This document shows positions 25,154-34,206 of a stretch of 64,000 bases of DNA, piece by piece (the first letter of the stretch is position 1; every line of letters starts with the position of its first letter). Source of the DNA: Variovorax paradoxus (lineage in GTDB: Bacteria > Pseudomonadota > Gammaproteobacteria > Burkholderiales > Burkholderiaceae_C); NCBI RefSeq assembly GCF_029919115.1, contig NZ_CP123990.1:5482501-5546500 (forward strand). The letters are read 5' to 3'. Under the pieces are notes generated by a model, which did not search any database, was not told the origin of the DNA, and saw only the letters and a program-made list of their open reading frames with translations. The translations under genes and the position numbers were made by a program.

Positions 25154-25178
25154 CCGTGCAGCCGCCTCGATCTCAGCG

Positions 25179-25835
25179 TCAGGCGGATTTGCCGCGCGCG
25201 GATTTCTTCGAGGTCTCGGCGCGCGGCGCATTCACGGGCGCCGCGGCACCGGCACCGTTCAGCTGATCGACCCACAACAGGGTGTCGACATAGGTCATGA
25301 AGCGGTTGAGGTATTCCGGCGACAAGTCGCGCATCAACAGCAGCGACCGGTGCACCAGGTGGTGCGAGTTGAGCGGGCCGGCGTTCTCGGGCACCTTGGC
25401 GAGCGACTGCGTGAGCCGCCGCTCGGCGCTGAGCCGCGACCAGGTGCTCTTGAAGAACTTGAGGCTCTTCAGCTCGGCGGGCGCCGGCGCAAGGCCGTGC
25501 AGCGTGTCTTCTGCCGCCGCCGCGGTGCTGCCGCCAATGGCCGGCGCATGCTGCGCAATATGGTCGACCAGTTCCGCGAGCGCGCCGCGAGCGGGTGCGC
25601 CTGCAGGCAGTCGTTTCACGGCACTGTCCACGCCCTGCGCCTTTTCAAGATTCCTGCCGTAGGCCGCAGCCAGGCCGGCGAGCTTCTCATCGAGGATGCG
25701 CCTCGCCTCTCCCTGGTGCGCAGCCGTACGCCTGGCCAACGCCTCCATGAAATGAAAGCGCACCGGGTCCGCGCGATGCTGCCCCTGCGCCCGCCAGGCG
25801 CCGATCATCTCGATGGGATCGACCTGTTCGCTCAC
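25179..25835 (-). CDS. DUF2894 protein, last gene of stator-like operon
   Basis: The 218-residue protein is predicted soluble and mostly helical, starting MSEQVDPIEMIGAWRAQGQ, with conserved-looking blocks FHFMEALARRTAAHQGEARR and LKFFKSTWSRLSAERRLTQS, then SHHLVHRSLLLMRDLSPEYL near residues 160-180 and a basic low-complexity tail. It corresponds to DUF2894 as I recall it, with no known function. Its start overlaps the stop of the OmpA-family gene by 4 bases (25832-25835), so its synthesis is coupled to the membrane components. Probably a cytoplasmic accessory protein of the complex (inference). Confidence 0.8.
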   Translation of the reverse strand: MSEQVDPIEMIGAWRAQGQHRADPVRFHFMEALARRTAAHQGEARRILDEKLAGLAAAYGRNLEKAQGVDSAVKRLPAGAPARGALAELVDHIAQHAPAIGGSTAAAAEDTLHGLAPAPAELKSLKFFKSTWSRLSAERRLTQSLAKVPENAGPLNSHHLVHRSLLLMRDLSPEYLNRFMTYVDTLLWVDQLNGAGAAAPVNAPRAETSKKSARGKSA

Positions 25836-26488
25836 GGCCGCTTCGTGGTGGCGTTGGATTGCCTTGGCGTGGGCGCCATTTCCACACGCCGGTTCTTCGA
25901 GCGGCCTTCGGCATCGGCATTGGACGCGACCGCCTGCTCGGAGCCGAATGCCGCGGCAAACACGGACGACGAGGGAATGCCCTCTTCGATGAGCGCCCGC
26001 GTGACCGTCAATGCGCGTTGGGCCGAGAGCTCCCAGTTGTCGGCGAAGGGGCGGTTGCCGTCTTTCGACTGCCGCATCTGCCGGTCGTCGGTGAAGCCGC
26101 TCACCATCAGCACCTCGTCGCGTGCCTTGAGGTAGGCCGCCACCGGCGCGGCCAGGCTCTTGAGCAGCTGGCGGCCTTCAGGCTGCAGGTCGGCGGAGTT
26201 GAAGGCGAACAGCACGCTGCCGCTAATGCCGATGCGCCCGTTGTTCAGCGTGACGCGGCCCGCCGCGAGTGGCCCGGCCAACGCTTGTTCGAGCGCTTCG
26301 CGGCGCTGCGTTTCGGCCTGCCGCTGCTGCACTTCGGCCTCGAGCTTGGCCGCAAGGTCCAGCTGCATGCCGAGCGCGCCCACGAGAATGAGCACAAACG
26401 CGCCGACCAGGCCCGCCATCAGGTCGCCGAACACCGCCCATACCGGAACGCTCGGTTCCAGTCCGCCGTCGGCTTCTTCACCCATCAT
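25832..26488 (-). CDS. OmpA-family protein, MotB/ZorB-like stator subunit
   Basis: The product is 218 residues. One transmembrane helix spans about residues 17-38 (VFGDLMAGLVGAFVLILVGA) and carries Asp22 at its cytoplasmic end, the position of the proton-carrying aspartate in MotB, TolR and ZorB. A short charged linker (45-75) leads to an OmpA-like peptidoglycan-binding domain, with LFAFNSADLQPEG, VSGFTDDRQ, NWELSAQRAL and RSKNRRVEM. Together with the upstream MotA/ZorA-like gene this forms a predicted ion-driven unit anchored in the cell wall. Overlaps both neighbours by 4 bases. Confidence 0.88.
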   Translation of the reverse strand: MMGEEADGGLEPSVPVWAVFGDLMAGLVGAFVLILVGALGMQLDLAAKLEAEVQQRQAETQRREALEQALAGPLAAGRVTLNNGRIGISGSVLFAFNSADLQPEGRQLLKSLAAPVAAYLKARDEVLMVSGFTDDRQMRQSKDGNRPFADNWELSAQRALTVTRALIEEGIPSSSVFAAAFGSEQAVASNADAEGRSKNRRVEMAPTPRQSNATTKRP

Positions 26489-28578
26489 GCTTCGCTGCCC
26501 ACCGCGGCTTGCCGGCTGGCAATCTGCTGCAGGTCTTCGACGATCTGCTTCTGCGACATGATGCTGAGGTCAATGACCTCCCGCGCCTGCGCAACGTAGT
26601 AGGCCAACTGCTCGTCGCTGCGCGCAATGGATTTGCCGAGCGCGCCTTCGACGCGCTGCAGATGCGCCACCAGCTTGTCGTTCGATTCGCTGAACTGCTG
26701 CACTGCAAACCCGAAGGCTTCGCCGAGGCTTGCCACCTCGACCGCGCTGCCGGTGATCTGCGCGGCAACGCTCTCGAGCTTTCCGGTTTCGGCCTCGACC
26801 TTTTCGGTGAAGCGGCTGCCCACGCGTTCGAGCACGTCGGCCGAGGCGCCGACCAGTGCATCGACCGCCGAGCGTTGCTCGGTGGAGACATGGTTCACGG
26901 CGTCGAGCAAGGTGCCGAGCGTTTCCATGATGCGGCTGCGCTCCTCCAGCATTGCGTTGTCGCGCGCCATGCTGTCGGAGAGCTTCTGCCGCAGTTCGGC
27001 CACCACTTCGGCCGCAACGCGCGGTGCATCCGAAGCGGCTTGCAGCAGCTGTGCGATTTCTTCGACCGTGCTCTTCGCATGCGCTTGCGCCTGGGCCGAC
27101 ATGTCGCGCGCGGTTTGCGCCAGCGTTTCGAAGAGCTGTTGCTGCTGGCTGGCCGTGTTCGCGCCGGCCTGCTGCCATTCTTGCTGCAGCGATGCAGCCA
27201 TTGACGAGAGTGCCTCGGTCCACGCCGACAGCCGCTGCTCGTCCCGCGACGCCATGTCGGTTTGCAGGCTGGCATGCGCCGCGCCCACCGTGCGCAGCAG
27301 CGAAGCCGAGTGCTGCTCGAAGGTGGCCGCGGCCGCCGCGAGGGACTGTTGCGTGCCGCCCGACAGCTTTTCGCTGGCGCGCTGGTGCTCTGCGAGCGCG
27401 CTGCTCCAAGTGTCGGATACGCTGCCCACTGTTTTCTCGAGCCGCGCGGACACGGTATCCACCAGCGAAGCCGAGCGCTGTTCGAAGGTTTCGGCAAAGC
27501 GCTCCTGCGAAACGCGCAGGTCCACTGCCAACGTCTCATTGCTGCGCTGGTGTTCGGCCAGCGCGGCCTTCCACGTATCGGCCACGGTGGCCGTGGTGGC
27601 CTCGAAGCGGCTCGAAAGCCCTTCGAGCTGCTGCTGCACCGTGTGCGCGACCGTGCCATGCAAGGAGGCGGTCTCGCGCGCAATGCCGGCCATGGTGGCT
27701 TCGACGACCGGCTGGATCGTTGCGCCGGCGATGCGGGCGCTTTCGGTCAGGCTCTGCTTCAGCGACTGGTCGACCGACGAGGCCAGGCCGGCGTACACCG
27801 CCTCGGCCTTGCTGTGGAAATGCTCCTGGCTGGTGATCAGGCGCTCGTTCAACGCTTGGCTCTGCCGCTCCATGGCGGCCAGCATGGCTTGCAGCTGGTC
27901 GACCAGCACAGGCATGGCCTGGGCCTGCTGTTCGAGCAGTTGGAACGACGCCTCGCGCTGATGCACCAGCGAGTACACGCGCAAGGTGGTCGCAATCTTC
28001 GTATCGAGCATCTGCCCGGCCTGCAGCCGCTCGCGCCGGCACAGCGCTGAGGCCAAACCCAGCATCGCCGACGCTGCGACGCCGGCCACCGAGGTGCCGA
28101 ACGCCAGCCCCAGGCCCTTCACGGGCGCGGAGAGCGAGGCGCGGATGGCCTGCAGGTCGGTCGCGCTTTCCAGCGCCATGCCGGTGCCGTTCAGCGTCAC
28201 CACCATGCCGAGAAAAGTGCCCAGCATGCCCAAGAGCACAAGCAGTCCGGCAAGGTACGGCGTGAGCGACGGCCCGGGCAAGCCGACGCGCTCGCCCTCG
28301 ATGCGCAGGCGCACCGCATTGCGCAGAGACGGATGCAGCTGCTCCAGCCACGAGCCCAGGTTGGCCGGGGCTTCGGTCAACCGCGACACTGCACTGGCCA
28401 GGGTGGAGGTGGCCTGCCTGAAGCGATGCAGCTCCACCACGCCCATCAGGTAGAACGCAGCGACGAGCACCGTGATCGAAAGCGCCAGCGGATGGTTGGA
28501 GCCGACGTAGCCCGCGCCAACCCAGCACACGGCGGCAAGGCCGGCGGCAAAAACAGCGTATTGAAGAAATCTGGTCAT
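26485..28578 (-). CDS. DUF802 protein, MotA/ZorA-like channel with long coiled-coil tail
   Basis: This 697-residue protein has four predicted transmembrane helices: about residues 5-27, 31-50, 105-130 and 155-180. The third has the motif GLLVLLGMLGTFLGM, and the fourth is preceded by KGLGLAFGTSVAGVAASAML; both are hallmarks of the MotA/TolQ/ExbB/ZorA channel family. Residues about 190-690 are a long, mostly helical cytoplasmic tail with repeated modules (for example FEQRSASLVDTV, FEQHSASLLRTV, DTWSSALAEHQRAS, DTWKAALAEHQRSN). That combination of channel core plus hundreds of residues of tail is the ZorA layout. It overlaps DUF3348 upstream and the OmpA gene downstream by 4 bases each. Confidence 0.87.
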   Translation of the reverse strand: MTRFLQYAVFAAGLAAVCWVGAGYVGSNHPLALSITVLVAAFYLMGVVELHRFRQATSTLASAVSRLTEAPANLGSWLEQLHPSLRNAVRLRIEGERVGLPGPSLTPYLAGLLVLLGMLGTFLGMVVTLNGTGMALESATDLQAIRASLSAPVKGLGLAFGTSVAGVAASAMLGLASALCRRERLQAGQMLDTKIATTLRVYSLVHQREASFQLLEQQAQAMPVLVDQLQAMLAAMERQSQALNERLITSQEHFHSKAEAVYAGLASSVDQSLKQSLTESARIAGATIQPVVEATMAGIARETASLHGTVAHTVQQQLEGLSSRFEATTATVADTWKAALAEHQRSNETLAVDLRVSQERFAETFEQRSASLVDTVSARLEKTVGSVSDTWSSALAEHQRASEKLSGGTQQSLAAAAATFEQHSASLLRTVGAAHASLQTDMASRDEQRLSAWTEALSSMAASLQQEWQQAGANTASQQQQLFETLAQTARDMSAQAQAHAKSTVEEIAQLLQAASDAPRVAAEVVAELRQKLSDSMARDNAMLEERSRIMETLGTLLDAVNHVSTEQRSAVDALVGASADVLERVGSRFTEKVEAETGKLESVAAQITGSAVEVASLGEAFGFAVQQFSESNDKLVAHLQRVEGALGKSIARSDEQLAYYVAQAREVIDLSIMSQKQIVEDLQQIASRQAAVGSEA

Positions 28579-29261
28579 GGCACTCTGGTTGCCTCGCGAA
28601 AGGCTTCAAGAAGCCCTTCGACGGGTTGAAATCGGAAGTCCAGTTCGGCGAGCAGCACGTTCTTCATGTCCTTGCGGAACACATGCAGCCACTCGCCGGG
28701 CTGGGCCTCGCTGGCGGGTTCGGCTGCCGTCAGCAGGCCGTCCCCGCTCAAGCGGGTGAAATGTTTCTCGAGCAGCGCGGGCACGCCGGCCAGCAGGCTG
28801 TGCTCGCGCGAGGCCAGCACCTGCTCCATGACCACGTCCACCGCCGCCAGCCGGGCCATGGCCGGCGACCTGGCTGCCAGCGCGGCCCGAAGGCGCCCGC
28901 GCAACGGGCCGATGCCCGCTTCCATGGCTTGCTGCAGTGCGAAGTAGCGGCGGCGAAACGGCGCGAACTCGGCCGCTGCCGCCACGGCGGCGTCTTCGGC
29001 AATGGCCTTGGCCAGCGCGGTGCGCGCACCGGCGCACTCCCGCTCCTCGGCGTTCGCGCCAGGCCGCAGCCGTGAAGAAGCAGCCGCCGGAACGCCGTCC
29101 AGCGCCGCGGACAGCGAAATGGCGTCGGTCCAGCCGAACCATTGGCTCAATCGGTCCGCGGTGGCTTGCCGGGGTTCGCGCAGGTCCGTGTCGGCCAGTC
29201 GCGAAAGCAAGCGAACAAGCGCCGAACCATTGAAAACTGTGCGCTGTGAAACGTGCGCCAT
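28575..29261 (-). CDS. DUF3348 protein, first gene of stator-like operon
   Basis: The 228-residue protein starts MAHVSQRTVFNGSALVRLLS and appears soluble and helical with conserved-looking blocks LSQWFGWTDAISLSAAL, FRRRYFALQQAMEAGI and LHVFRKDMKNVLLAELDFR, and an acidic/aromatic C-terminus. It matches DUF3348, a Burkholderiales family of unknown function. It opens a four-gene chain in which every junction is a 4-bp ATGA-type overlap. A cytoplasmic assembly or regulatory role for the channel complex is inference. Confidence 0.82.
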   Translation of the reverse strand: MAHVSQRTVFNGSALVRLLSRLADTDLREPRQATADRLSQWFGWTDAISLSAALDGVPAAASSRLRPGANAEERECAGARTALAKAIAEDAAVAAAAEFAPFRRRYFALQQAMEAGIGPLRGRLRAALAARSPAMARLAAVDVVMEQVLASREHSLLAGVPALLEKHFTRLSGDGLLTAAEPASEAQPGEWLHVFRKDMKNVLLAELDFRFQPVEGLLEAFREATRVP

Positions 29262-29515
29262 ACCCCAGAACGAAAAACCTGGCAGTCTACACCGGCCACC
29301 CCGCCTGGACGCCCCCGACCAACCCTCCCGCCCAGTGAAACTTCCGGTAACGCGGCGGCTGGTAACCGGCCGTTTTCGAGTGCCGATCCGAAGGCCTGCC
29401 TTGCATCGTCAGCCAGATTCCAGTCCGGTGTGGCGTAAGTCCCAAGTTCTACCGGCGCTTGCCGCGCGCAGACTCCCCATTCCGGCCCATGGCCGGAAAA
29501 AGCACAAGGAGCGGC

Positions 29516-32611
<3,096 letters not shown>

Positions 32612-32728
32612 CCATCGGCTGCACGCGGCCCAAATGGTCAATTCTGGCGATGTGCGGGCGAGCGGCCCGTCCTATGGTCTGTTCCAGGCCCGGCGCCGCC
32701 GGGTCGGCAACCAGAAGGAGTGCTTCAT

Positions 32729-33088
32729 ATGCCCGCAACCCTGTATGAACGGCTCGGCGGCGAAGAGCGAATCCAGCGCCTCGTCACCGACGTCGTCGAG
32801 AACCACTACGGCAACCCGCTGATTCGCGCCCGCTTCGCCAACAGCAACCGCCCGGAGATCGAGCGCCACGTGTTCGAGTTTCTATGCGCCGGCAGCGGCG
32901 GCCCGCAGTGCTACACCGGCAAGGACCTTGTGACCGCGCACAAGGGAATGAACATCAACGAACAGGAGCTGGTCGCCGCCATCGACGACATCCTGGCGGC
33001 AATGTCCAAGAACGGCTACGACCAGGCCGAGAAGAACGAAGTGGTCGCGATTCTTTATTCGCTCAAGGGCGATGTGGTGCGGCTGTAG
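32729..33088 (+). CDS. Group I truncated hemoglobin
   Basis: This 119-residue protein starts MPATLYERLGGEERIQRLV, with an AAGGAG site 9 bases before the ATG. Typical features are the glycine motif LGG, the E-helix region YTGKDLVTAHKGMNI, where the histidine is the proximal heme ligand, and MSKNGYDQAEKNEVVAIL. Such proteins bind heme and handle oxygen, nitric oxide or peroxides. The preceding frame bases (to 32720) are a GTG not needed for the fold. Confidence 0.92.
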   Translation: MPATLYERLGGEERIQRLVTDVVENHYGNPLIRARFANSNRPEIERHVFEFLCAGSGGPQCYTGKDLVTAHKGMNINEQELVAAIDDILAAMSKNGYDQAEKNEVVAILYSLKGDVVRL

Positions 33089-33153
33089 ACAAGCCGCGCC
33101 CTCGCCAGCGCCCCGGCGGCGTTTCGCCGGTCACGCAAAAAAAGGAAAAGACC

Positions 33154-33624
33154 ATGACACGCCAACCATTTGTCGCCTGGGCCGTCGGCGCCGTAGTGCT
33201 CGCCGCCATTGCAACGAGCTGGGCCCAGACCCCCGACCACCAGATGATTTCGCCCGCCGACCTGAAATGGGCCGACGTTCCCTCGCTGCCGCCGGGCGCA
33301 AAACTCGCGGTGCTCGAGGGTCCGATGAGCGAAGCCGTGCCCTTCACGGTGCGCATCAGGGTGCCGGCGAACTACCGTATTCCGTCGCACTGGCATCCGG
33401 CTGTGGAGCGGGTGACCGTGCTCTCGGGCACCTTCCACATGGGCCTGGGCGACAAGCTCGACATGCAGAAGTCGATGCCCGTGACCGCAGGCGGCATGAT
33501 GATCCTGCAGGCCAAGACGCCCCACTTTGCCTGGACCCAGGAGGAAACCGTGGTGCAGCTTCACGGCACGGGGCCGTGGGGCGTGACCTACGTCAACCCG
33601 GCGGACGACCCGCGGTCGAAGTAG
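33154..33624 (+). CDS. Secreted cupin-domain protein
   Basis: The 156-residue protein has an N-terminal signal peptide (about residues 1-25, ending TSWAQTP) and a single cupin barrel. The metal-binding motif is visible as IPSHWHPAVERVTVLSG (two histidines and a glutamate) with a second motif GGMMILQAKTPHFAW supplying another histidine. Preceded by AAAAGGAAA. Start chosen at 33154; the upstream frame shadows the hemoglobin gene. Function unknown, possibly a periplasmic oxidoreductase or binding protein. Confidence 0.82.
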   Translation: MTRQPFVAWAVGAVVLAAIATSWAQTPDHQMISPADLKWADVPSLPPGAKLAVLEGPMSEAVPFTVRIRVPANYRIPSHWHPAVERVTVLSGTFHMGLGDKLDMQKSMPVTAGGMMILQAKTPHFAWTQEETVVQLHGTGPWGVTYVNPADDPRSK

Positions 33625-33633
33625 GCTCCAGCT

Positions 33634-33912
33634 TCAGGCCGCCGCAACGGCCGCGCCCTGCACCGCTGGCGGTCGCAGTTCGTCGACCTCGATCACCACA
33701 TCGGCGGGCAGCCCGTTGCGCTGCGCCGCCTCGCGGATCAACTCGGCACTGGGCGCTTCGTACAGGCAGTAGGTCTTCTTCTTGTCGGCGCTCAGGAACG
33801 AGTACAGCCATCGAACCCCGACATCGTCGTTGATGCGCATGATGCCGGCCGCGCCCTCGGGCGAAACCTCGAGTTGATCGGCAAAGGTGCGTTCGATCAG
33901 ATAGAGAGGCAT
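33634..33912 (-). CDS. DUF4242 small protein (SCO4226-like)
   Basis: The 92-residue protein MPLYLIERTFADQLEVSPEG has the ferredoxin-like DUF4242 pattern: INDDVGVRWLYSFLSADKKK then YCLYEAPSAELIREAAQRNG and a C-terminal alanine-rich end. The family includes a nickel-binding Streptomyces protein; the role here is unknown. It is convergent with the cupin gene, 9 bp apart. Confidence 0.82.
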   Translation of the reverse strand: MPLYLIERTFADQLEVSPEGAAGIMRINDDVGVRWLYSFLSADKKKTYCLYEAPSAELIREAAQRNGLPADVVIEVDELRPPAVQGAAVAAA

Positions 33913-33994
33913 GGCAACTCCTTCGTAGGGGATGGAGCTGCCATCCTAGAACTGGCGCGCAGCGCGTGGCGCACGTGTTTCCCCCGCCTGGCCG

Positions 33995-34140
33995 TTCGTA
34001 CTACCCTGCGGCCTACCCACGCCGTTCACGGCGCAGAACGCAAAAAGCCGGACGATGCCTTAAAGGCTTCGTACTACCCTGCGGCCTACCCACGCCGTTC
34101 ACGGCGCAGAACGCAAAAAGCCGGACGATGCCTTTAAGGC
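33995..34140. repeat. Tandem duplication of a 73-bp unit
   Basis: Two adjacent copies (33995-34067 and 34068-34140) match at 72 of 73 positions, the single difference being 34062 versus 34135. The unit ends in the left arm and loop of the terminator at 34116-34154, so copy 1 is a terminator half without its full right arm. Looks like a recent slippage or unequal-exchange duplication. Confidence 0.85.
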
Positions 34141-34154
34141 ATCGTCCGGCTTTT
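34116..34154. terminator. Strong bidirectional terminator
   Basis: A perfect 17-bp stem (34116-34132 with 34138-34154) surrounds a TTTAA loop; the arms end in AAAA/TTTT, giving a T run on either strand. It lies about 50 bp beyond the stop of the small secreted protein gene at 34207 (minus strand), which it probably terminates. Confidence 0.8.
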
Positions 34155-34206
34155 GCGTTGCCGGGAGCAGGCGGCTTGTTGCCGCTGTTCCCGCGCCTGG
34201 CCCGAT

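Follow-up and report, generated by a model that had tools for sequence, protein, structure and literature searches.

A Zorya type III operon on the chromosome of Variovorax paradoxus: stator core, ZorA tail and genomic setting

Described Zorya systems

Structures of ZorAB have been solved for Zorya types I (ZorABCD) and II (ZorABE), in both of which the two proteins have a 5:2 stoichiometry and the ZorA tail is required for function; the effector is known for type II, where it is the soluble nickase ZorE (PMC11890865). Type III was defined in 2021 in PMC8565338, which counts 6,401 gene pairs flanked by both DUF genes, DUF3348 and DUF2894. The member tested in that work comes from Stenotrophomonas nitritireducens and protects E. 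coli from phage: plaquing of at least one phage was lowered in E. coli BL21-AI, and liquid cultures were protected at an MOI below 0.1. Elsewhere, a Variovorax strain has been assigned a Zorya type III system by PADLOC (PMC11953036), and PMC12584637 describes predicted Zorya I and Zorya III operons in B. cenocepacia, of which only the first one or two genes changed upon phage infection. The text of PMC8565338 designates DUF3348 as ZorF and DUF2894 as ZorG, and PADLOC-DB designates DUF3348 as ZorG3 and DUF2894 as ZorF3; because these labels are opposite, the DUF names are used here.

Organisation and identity of the operon

The operon occupies positions 25179-29261 on the minus strand of the window, that is, the whole 64,000-nucleotide stretch of V. 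paradoxus DNA that was analysed. An earlier, sequence-only reading had described four minus-strand genes in the order DUF3348, DUF802, OmpA and DUF2894 joined by three 4-bp overlaps, and the open reading frames and Pfam matches agree with it. The first gene (28575-29261) encodes a DUF3348 protein of 228 aa from an ATG start (PF11828, 4.6e-76) and is followed by the genes for ZorA3, the DUF802 protein (26485-28578; 697 aa, ATG start), and ZorB3, the OmpA protein (25832-26488; 218 aa, ATG start; Pfam OmpA, 8.1e-20). The last gene (25179-25835) encodes a DUF2894 protein of 218 aa from a GTG start (PF11445, 4.7e-63). The third overlap depends on this start, a 209-aa DUF2894 protein with a later start being recorded for the window's genome (P0122).

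Gene order and strand are constant in 61 of the 64 loci examined, and only the first two genes are seen in the remaining three, whose records span 3.5 to 10.1 kb. Exact 4-bp overlaps at the three junctions occur in 21, 47, and 6 of the 61 complete operons (the window's included), as counted from script-picked starts. All 24 gene comparisons made over six locus pairs gave dN/dS values of 0.03-0.32, with ZorB3 the lowest of the four genes in 6/6 pairs (0.03-0.12) and DUF2894 the highest in 5/6 (0.21-0.32 overall). Since order and strand are kept in so many loci and dN/dS is low, the four-gene arrangement is more than chance. The G+C content of the operon resembles that of its surroundings.

PADLOC-DB type III models match all four proteins (ZorA3, E = 0; ZorB3, 4.3e-111; ZorG3, 2.7e-88, to the DUF3348 protein; ZorF3, 8.5e-80, to the DUF2894 protein), and matches to types I and II are much weaker (ZorA1, 6.4e-9; ZorA2, 8.5e-8; ZorB1, 2.3e-17; ZorB2, 7.8e-9). 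The NCBIfam ZorA models score ZorA3 far under their cut-offs (26.6 of 100 bits at best), so that its resemblance to types I and II is distant. PADLOC found no ZorC, ZorD, or ZorE among the four operon proteins or eight neighbours; hence, neither the ZorC and ZorD that mark type I alongside ZorAB nor the ZorE that marks type II in or beside the operon is present over that range. The genome-wide search covered PF15611, which we take to be the ZorC-type family and a type I marker, and this gave no match in the genome of the window; one of 61 Variovorax genomes contains it. What the operon does hold is ZorA3 and ZorB3 with DUF3348 and DUF2894 adjoining them, the composition of type III.

The operon is therefore almost certainly, by identity, a chromosomal Zorya type III anti-phage system. 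From the lack of ZorC, ZorD, and ZorE, the sequence-only reading had concluded that this could be a physiological system or a new stator-based defence variant. The second option is not supported: their absence belongs to the definition of type III, in which DUF3348 and DUF2894 replace them. A new stator system was accordingly rejected, PADLOC and PMC8565338 already containing the four-gene set; this is a known system, of which the window carries a standard copy. All four proteins and their linkage are the same as in described type III, with no type-defining difference, and the tested member differs in host genus.

The stator core and its ion path

Hydropathy places four membrane segments in ZorA3 (residues 4-22, 30-48, 109-127, and 158-176), followed after about residue 176 by a long tail that contains two DUF802 repeats with a 55-residue spacing (Pfam, 6.1e-33). 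In ZorB3 there is a single segment (residues 23-41), with Asp22 at its edge. A profile of the ZorA3 membrane domain, built from 30 sequences, has one significant match in the PDB, the 696-residue chain 8vvn_C (1.6e-5), annotated MotA/TolQ/ExbB; the ZorB3 profile matches MotB chains there as well as 8vvn_B (1.7e-8) and 8qyd_F (3.6e-8), the latter from an entry that is presumably E. coli ZorAB. The length of 8vvn_C agrees with that of ZorA from Shewanella sp. ANA-3, residues 237-696 of which are modelled as a rod (PMC11890865).

These results uphold what had been read from the letters about the two proteins: a DUF802 protein with four membrane helices, MotA/TolQ/ZorA-type motifs and a long tail (hydropathy, PADLOC, and 8vvn_C), an OmpA protein with one helix, Asp22 and a peptidoglycan-binding domain (hydropathy and Pfam OmpA), and, from the two together, a ZorAB-type stator with a MotB/OmpA-type partner (PADLOC and the PDB matches). 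Comparison with ZorA and ZorB profiles had been set beforehand as a test, and the profiles match both. Another was whether OmpA homologues keep the membrane aspartate, and ZorB3 Asp22 is present in every one of the 61 operons, that of the window among them. Over the 30 aligned rows, D22 of ZorB3 and T121, T162, S163, and S170 of ZorA3 are invariant. By analogy with types I and II (PMC11890865), the invariant threonines and serines may form a polar ring around the aspartate.

The stator core, the membrane aspartate, the peptidoglycan-binding domain, and the long ZorA tail are shared with Zorya types I and II, whereas ZorC, ZorD, and ZorE give way in the window's operon to two predicted helical DUF proteins as the soluble partners. 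With MotAB, TolQR, and ExbBD, the operon shares MotA/TolQ/ExbB-type membrane segments and motifs and the membrane aspartate, as well as an OmpA-like domain as in MotB; it differs from them in the long tail with DUF802 repeats and in the partners DUF3348 and DUF2894.

Length of the ZorA3 tail

The length of ZorA3 ranges from 473 to 1098 residues in the 61 operons (the shortest on a metagenome contig and perhaps truncated) and from 1076 to 1229 residues in 20 Achromobacter loci. Longer tails have often gained complete tandem copies, in frame, of a unit of 87, 116, or 131 residues. Relative to the window's ZorA3, the proteins of loci L008, L010, and L011 carry insertions of 87, 174, and 261 residues, and a period of 87 residues is the strongest in all nine loci of their site group; L034 has a 116-residue period and 232 additional residues, and L125 a 131-residue period and 393 additional residues. 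Achromobacter tails show the 131-residue period in 19 of 20 cases and the 87-residue period in the other. Differences that are not whole units also occur, both against the window (L021, +204; L018, -55 and -22; L035, -95) and among the Achromobacter lengths of 1076, 1098-1099, 1133, 1200, 1207, and 1229 residues, which differ by amounts other than 131 too. Tail length correlates with DUF802 copy number at 0.57, and hence copies of DUF802 alone are insufficient to explain it. A partial search of the literature found no mention of tail growth by repeat units.

The DUF proteins and a possible mechanism

AlphaFold models of both DUF proteins are all-helical (DUF3348, pLDDT 83.7 and pTM 0.79; DUF2894, pLDDT 78.6 and pTM 0.41). 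Fold searches with these models returned no significant match, and Pfam and NCBIfam place neither protein in an enzyme family, although either might represent a new enzyme fold; the pTM of the DUF2894 model adds to this reservation. DUF2894 has a basic C-terminal tail: across 97 sequences the final 30 residues have a median charge of +4, the charge reaching at least +4 in 50 and not exceeding 0 in 6. The corresponding median for DUF3348 is -2 in 100 sequences, both sets counting some genes twice. This positive charge is modest and could be a generic feature.

Taken as a whole, the operon is best explained, with good confidence, as a Zorya type III defence in which a stator motor works through DUF adaptors. 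Membership, motifs, linkage, and constraint appear from sequence comparison, and the motor action would carry over to type III from types I and II. By that analogy, ZorA3 and ZorB3 would assemble in the inner membrane as an ion-driven stator of 5:2 stoichiometry. Phage entry would disturb the envelope and cause ZorB3 to grip peptidoglycan; ion flow past Asp22 and the conserved ZorA3 threonines and serines would then turn or shift ZorA3 together with its long cytoplasmic tail. The tail would pass this motion to DUF3348 and DUF2894, positioned as are ZorC and ZorD, or ZorE, in types I and II, and these two proteins would act as non-enzymatic, tail-docked adaptors. Finally, the basic tail of DUF2894 might touch nucleic acid or another polyanion, binding and blocking incoming DNA close to the motor instead of cutting it. 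This output step is a guess, and a tentative one.

Its main rival is a regulated ion leak, in which DUF3348 and DUF2894 would keep the ZorAB channel closed until infection and then let it open; the membrane would depolarise and the infected cell would stop before the phage burst, making ZorAB itself the effector. Such an outcome is possible if doubtful. The authors of PMC8565338 propose that ZorF and ZorG regulate ZorAB, protection of liquid cultures at the low MOI that they report is expected of a population-level defence, and Pfam and PADLOC detect no nuclease or helicase family in the operon. The dependence of types I and II on the ZorA tail and the nickase that serves type II as effector (PMC11890865) weigh the other way, and a leak by itself would leave the long conserved tail unexplained.

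Distribution

Both the nearest records and rpoB place the window's genome in Variovorax. Of 61 Variovorax genomes, 59 contain the DUF3348 marker (51 of the 52 of good quality), as do 41 of 43 Achromobacter genomes (40/40 of good quality), with one copy in each; two complementary partial matches in three Variovorax genomes are read as one split gene. One of the two Variovorax genomes without a match is 62% complete, and the other (G046) is 99% complete and a candidate natural loss. At higher ranks, DUF3348 occurs in 44 of 150 genomes (39 of 126 genera) across the family and in 10 of 200 across the order. Two of these ten matches are weak (G193 and G068) and, although within the tally, were rejected as members, tblastn finding no adjoining ZorA (L054 and L055). 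None of 14 control genomes contains DUF3348. DUF2894 lies above the cut-off in 44 of 150 family genomes, with one more below it, and in 8 of 276 across the class; it also passes the cut-off in a control genome, Corynebacterium glutamicum, far from the other hosts.

A survey of co-occurrence, suggested at the outset, found DUF3348 and DUF2894 in identical sets of genomes, the same 44 of 150 in the family. In 43 of these, the two matches share contig and strand and are 2.3-4.0 kb apart; in the 44th, they are on different contigs. Among plasmids, ZorA appears in 27 of 72,556 records, the smallest of 366 kb, and of these 27, 20 are predicted non-mobilizable and 7 mobilizable; DUF3348 is found in 0 of 50,697 phage records. 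Type III Zorya in Ralstonia solanacearum has been presented as an example of a system highly conserved within one species (PMC13064858); conservation there is at the species level, and that seen here in Variovorax and Achromobacter is at the level of the genus.

Genomic sites

The flanks of the Variovorax operon differ between species groups. Automatic grouping sorts 41 loci into 12 groups by upstream flank and 38 loci into 10 by downstream flank, counting singletons. These counts are approximate, since two large groups merge downstream; two further loci in that grouping are from other genera. Nine site labels, hand-assigned from the flank groups to 29 Variovorax genomes with rpoB, fit the rpoB tree and the operon tree with eight changes each, which is the minimum possible, although only five of the nine labels are held by more than one genome. 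The sites track species groups: the rpoB data do not reject as clades the window's site group (p-AU 0.43) or the commonest other (0.27), though the best rpoB tree shows neither as one clade. Tested on the operon data, three rpoB groupings that include more than one site are rejected (p-AU 0.0103, 0.0138, and 0.00101, values that are optimistic for groups picked after the trees were seen), and rpoB likewise rejects a grouping that joins L018 to the site group of the window (p-AU 3.9e-5).

The neighbouring gene dnaJ is present in 23 of 24 genomes searched (3 from the window's site group and 21 others), and zor genes adjoin cbpM, within about 1.2 kb, in 3/3 genomes of that site group and 0/20 others. 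One other site shows the opposite picture: flanks separated by 6.9 kb in L020 lie about 107 bp from each other in the genome of the window, and spacings of 4.3 and 5.6 kb in L022 and L016 compare with about 440 bp. The commonest other location gave no clean empty site, its upstream flank being contiguous in the window's genome and its downstream flank scattered. The zor operon shares the window interval 25178-34200, which reaches from cbpM to about 34.2 kb, with a LuxR/AAA regulator, a globin, and a cupin; the whole interval differs between Variovorax species groups. Sequence like that of the window from 34.2 kb onward resumes 2.5-6.2 kb past cbpM in six of nine relatives and was not found in the other three; the stretches of all nine have no match to the regulator, globin, or cupin beside cbpM.

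Four-gene operons are present in 20/20 sampled Achromobacter loci (of 41 positive genomes), with flanks that form one upstream group of 20 and downstream groups of 17, 2, and 1. As flanks are varied in Variovorax and largely constant in Achromobacter, the operon appears to have moved or been exchanged in the former and to have stayed in place in the latter. A purely vertical core locus fits Achromobacter, but does not fit Variovorax, given the differing flanks and rejected rpoB groupings. A mobile-element footprint was also rejected, and no carrier was identified: no exact words of 12-30 bases are common to both edges of the operon surroundings in L020, one tRNA was found in 22 loci, and no integrase or transposase is among the 25 Pfam families listed out of 132 in 124 neighbour ORFs, most families seen once falling outside those 25.

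PADLOC found no defence protein among eight window neighbours tested, with an HTH-level match only. At 1e-8, ten PADLOC models have matches among the 124 neighbour ORFs from 11 loci: three for ZorG3 (one ORF each), three for DrmC, and mad2, mad3, mad8 (two ORFs), and AriA. These ORFs were chosen by length and codon make-up and may include shadow ORFs, and the ZorG3 matches very probably reflect the gene of the operon itself, called from a longer start in L042. With so few defence-like neighbours over both sets, a defence island was rejected.

A resident role and remaining alternatives

A defence system would not usually be so close to fixation in two genera, which speaks against the defence reading. 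The sequence-only reading had offered either a physiological system or a new defence variant; the latter falls with the 2021 definition of type III (PMC8565338), and near-fixation keeps the former in play. The operon could be a resident envelope machine in Variovorax and Achromobacter, with housekeeping duties such as sensing envelope or peptidoglycan stress and with protection of E. coli as a side effect. The single copies, the upstream flank common to all sampled Achromobacter loci and the downstream flank common to most, the scarcity on plasmids and absence from phage records, and the few defence-like neighbours are all in keeping with this. It is nevertheless unlikely: nine flank labels among 29 Variovorax genomes and the rejected rpoB groupings are as for an exchanged module, 106 of 150 family genomes lack DUF3348, and one type III member does protect against phage (PMC8565338).

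Another alternative, that the operon encodes an ordinary transport or outer-membrane machine of TolQR/ExbBD type without relation to Zorya, has the stator motifs in its favour and nothing else, and is highly improbable given the long tail, the strength of the type III ZorA3 and ZorB3 profile matches that contradict it, and the lack of any TonB or TolA family (Pfam) in the four operon proteins and four neighbours.

The preferred reading remains type III defence by a stator motor with DUF adaptors. A more speculative extension, which we consider improbable, would make type III a resident, genus-core motor, retained by almost all species of two or more genera, that guards the envelope with non-cutting DUF partners, its tail length tuned by 87-, 116-, or 131-residue units that perhaps set its reach from the membrane, and with a possible physiological role beside immunity. 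The obligate four-gene linkage, invariant ion-path residues, and repeat-unit tail differences between close species, together with a genus whose genomes each carry a single copy at one site, provide a starting set that makes the consequences of tail length and the roles of the DUF proteins amenable to direct tests.

Two adjacent genes were also recorded. In the window, the regulator at 29459-32611 is a 1050-aa AAA/LuxR-type protein, divergent from the operon, with weak PADLOC matches over its HTH part only. In one Achromobacter locus (L207:12172-12864), a Peptidase_M23 gene, of a family that includes peptidoglycan hydrolases, is divergent from and adjoins the DUF3348 gene.
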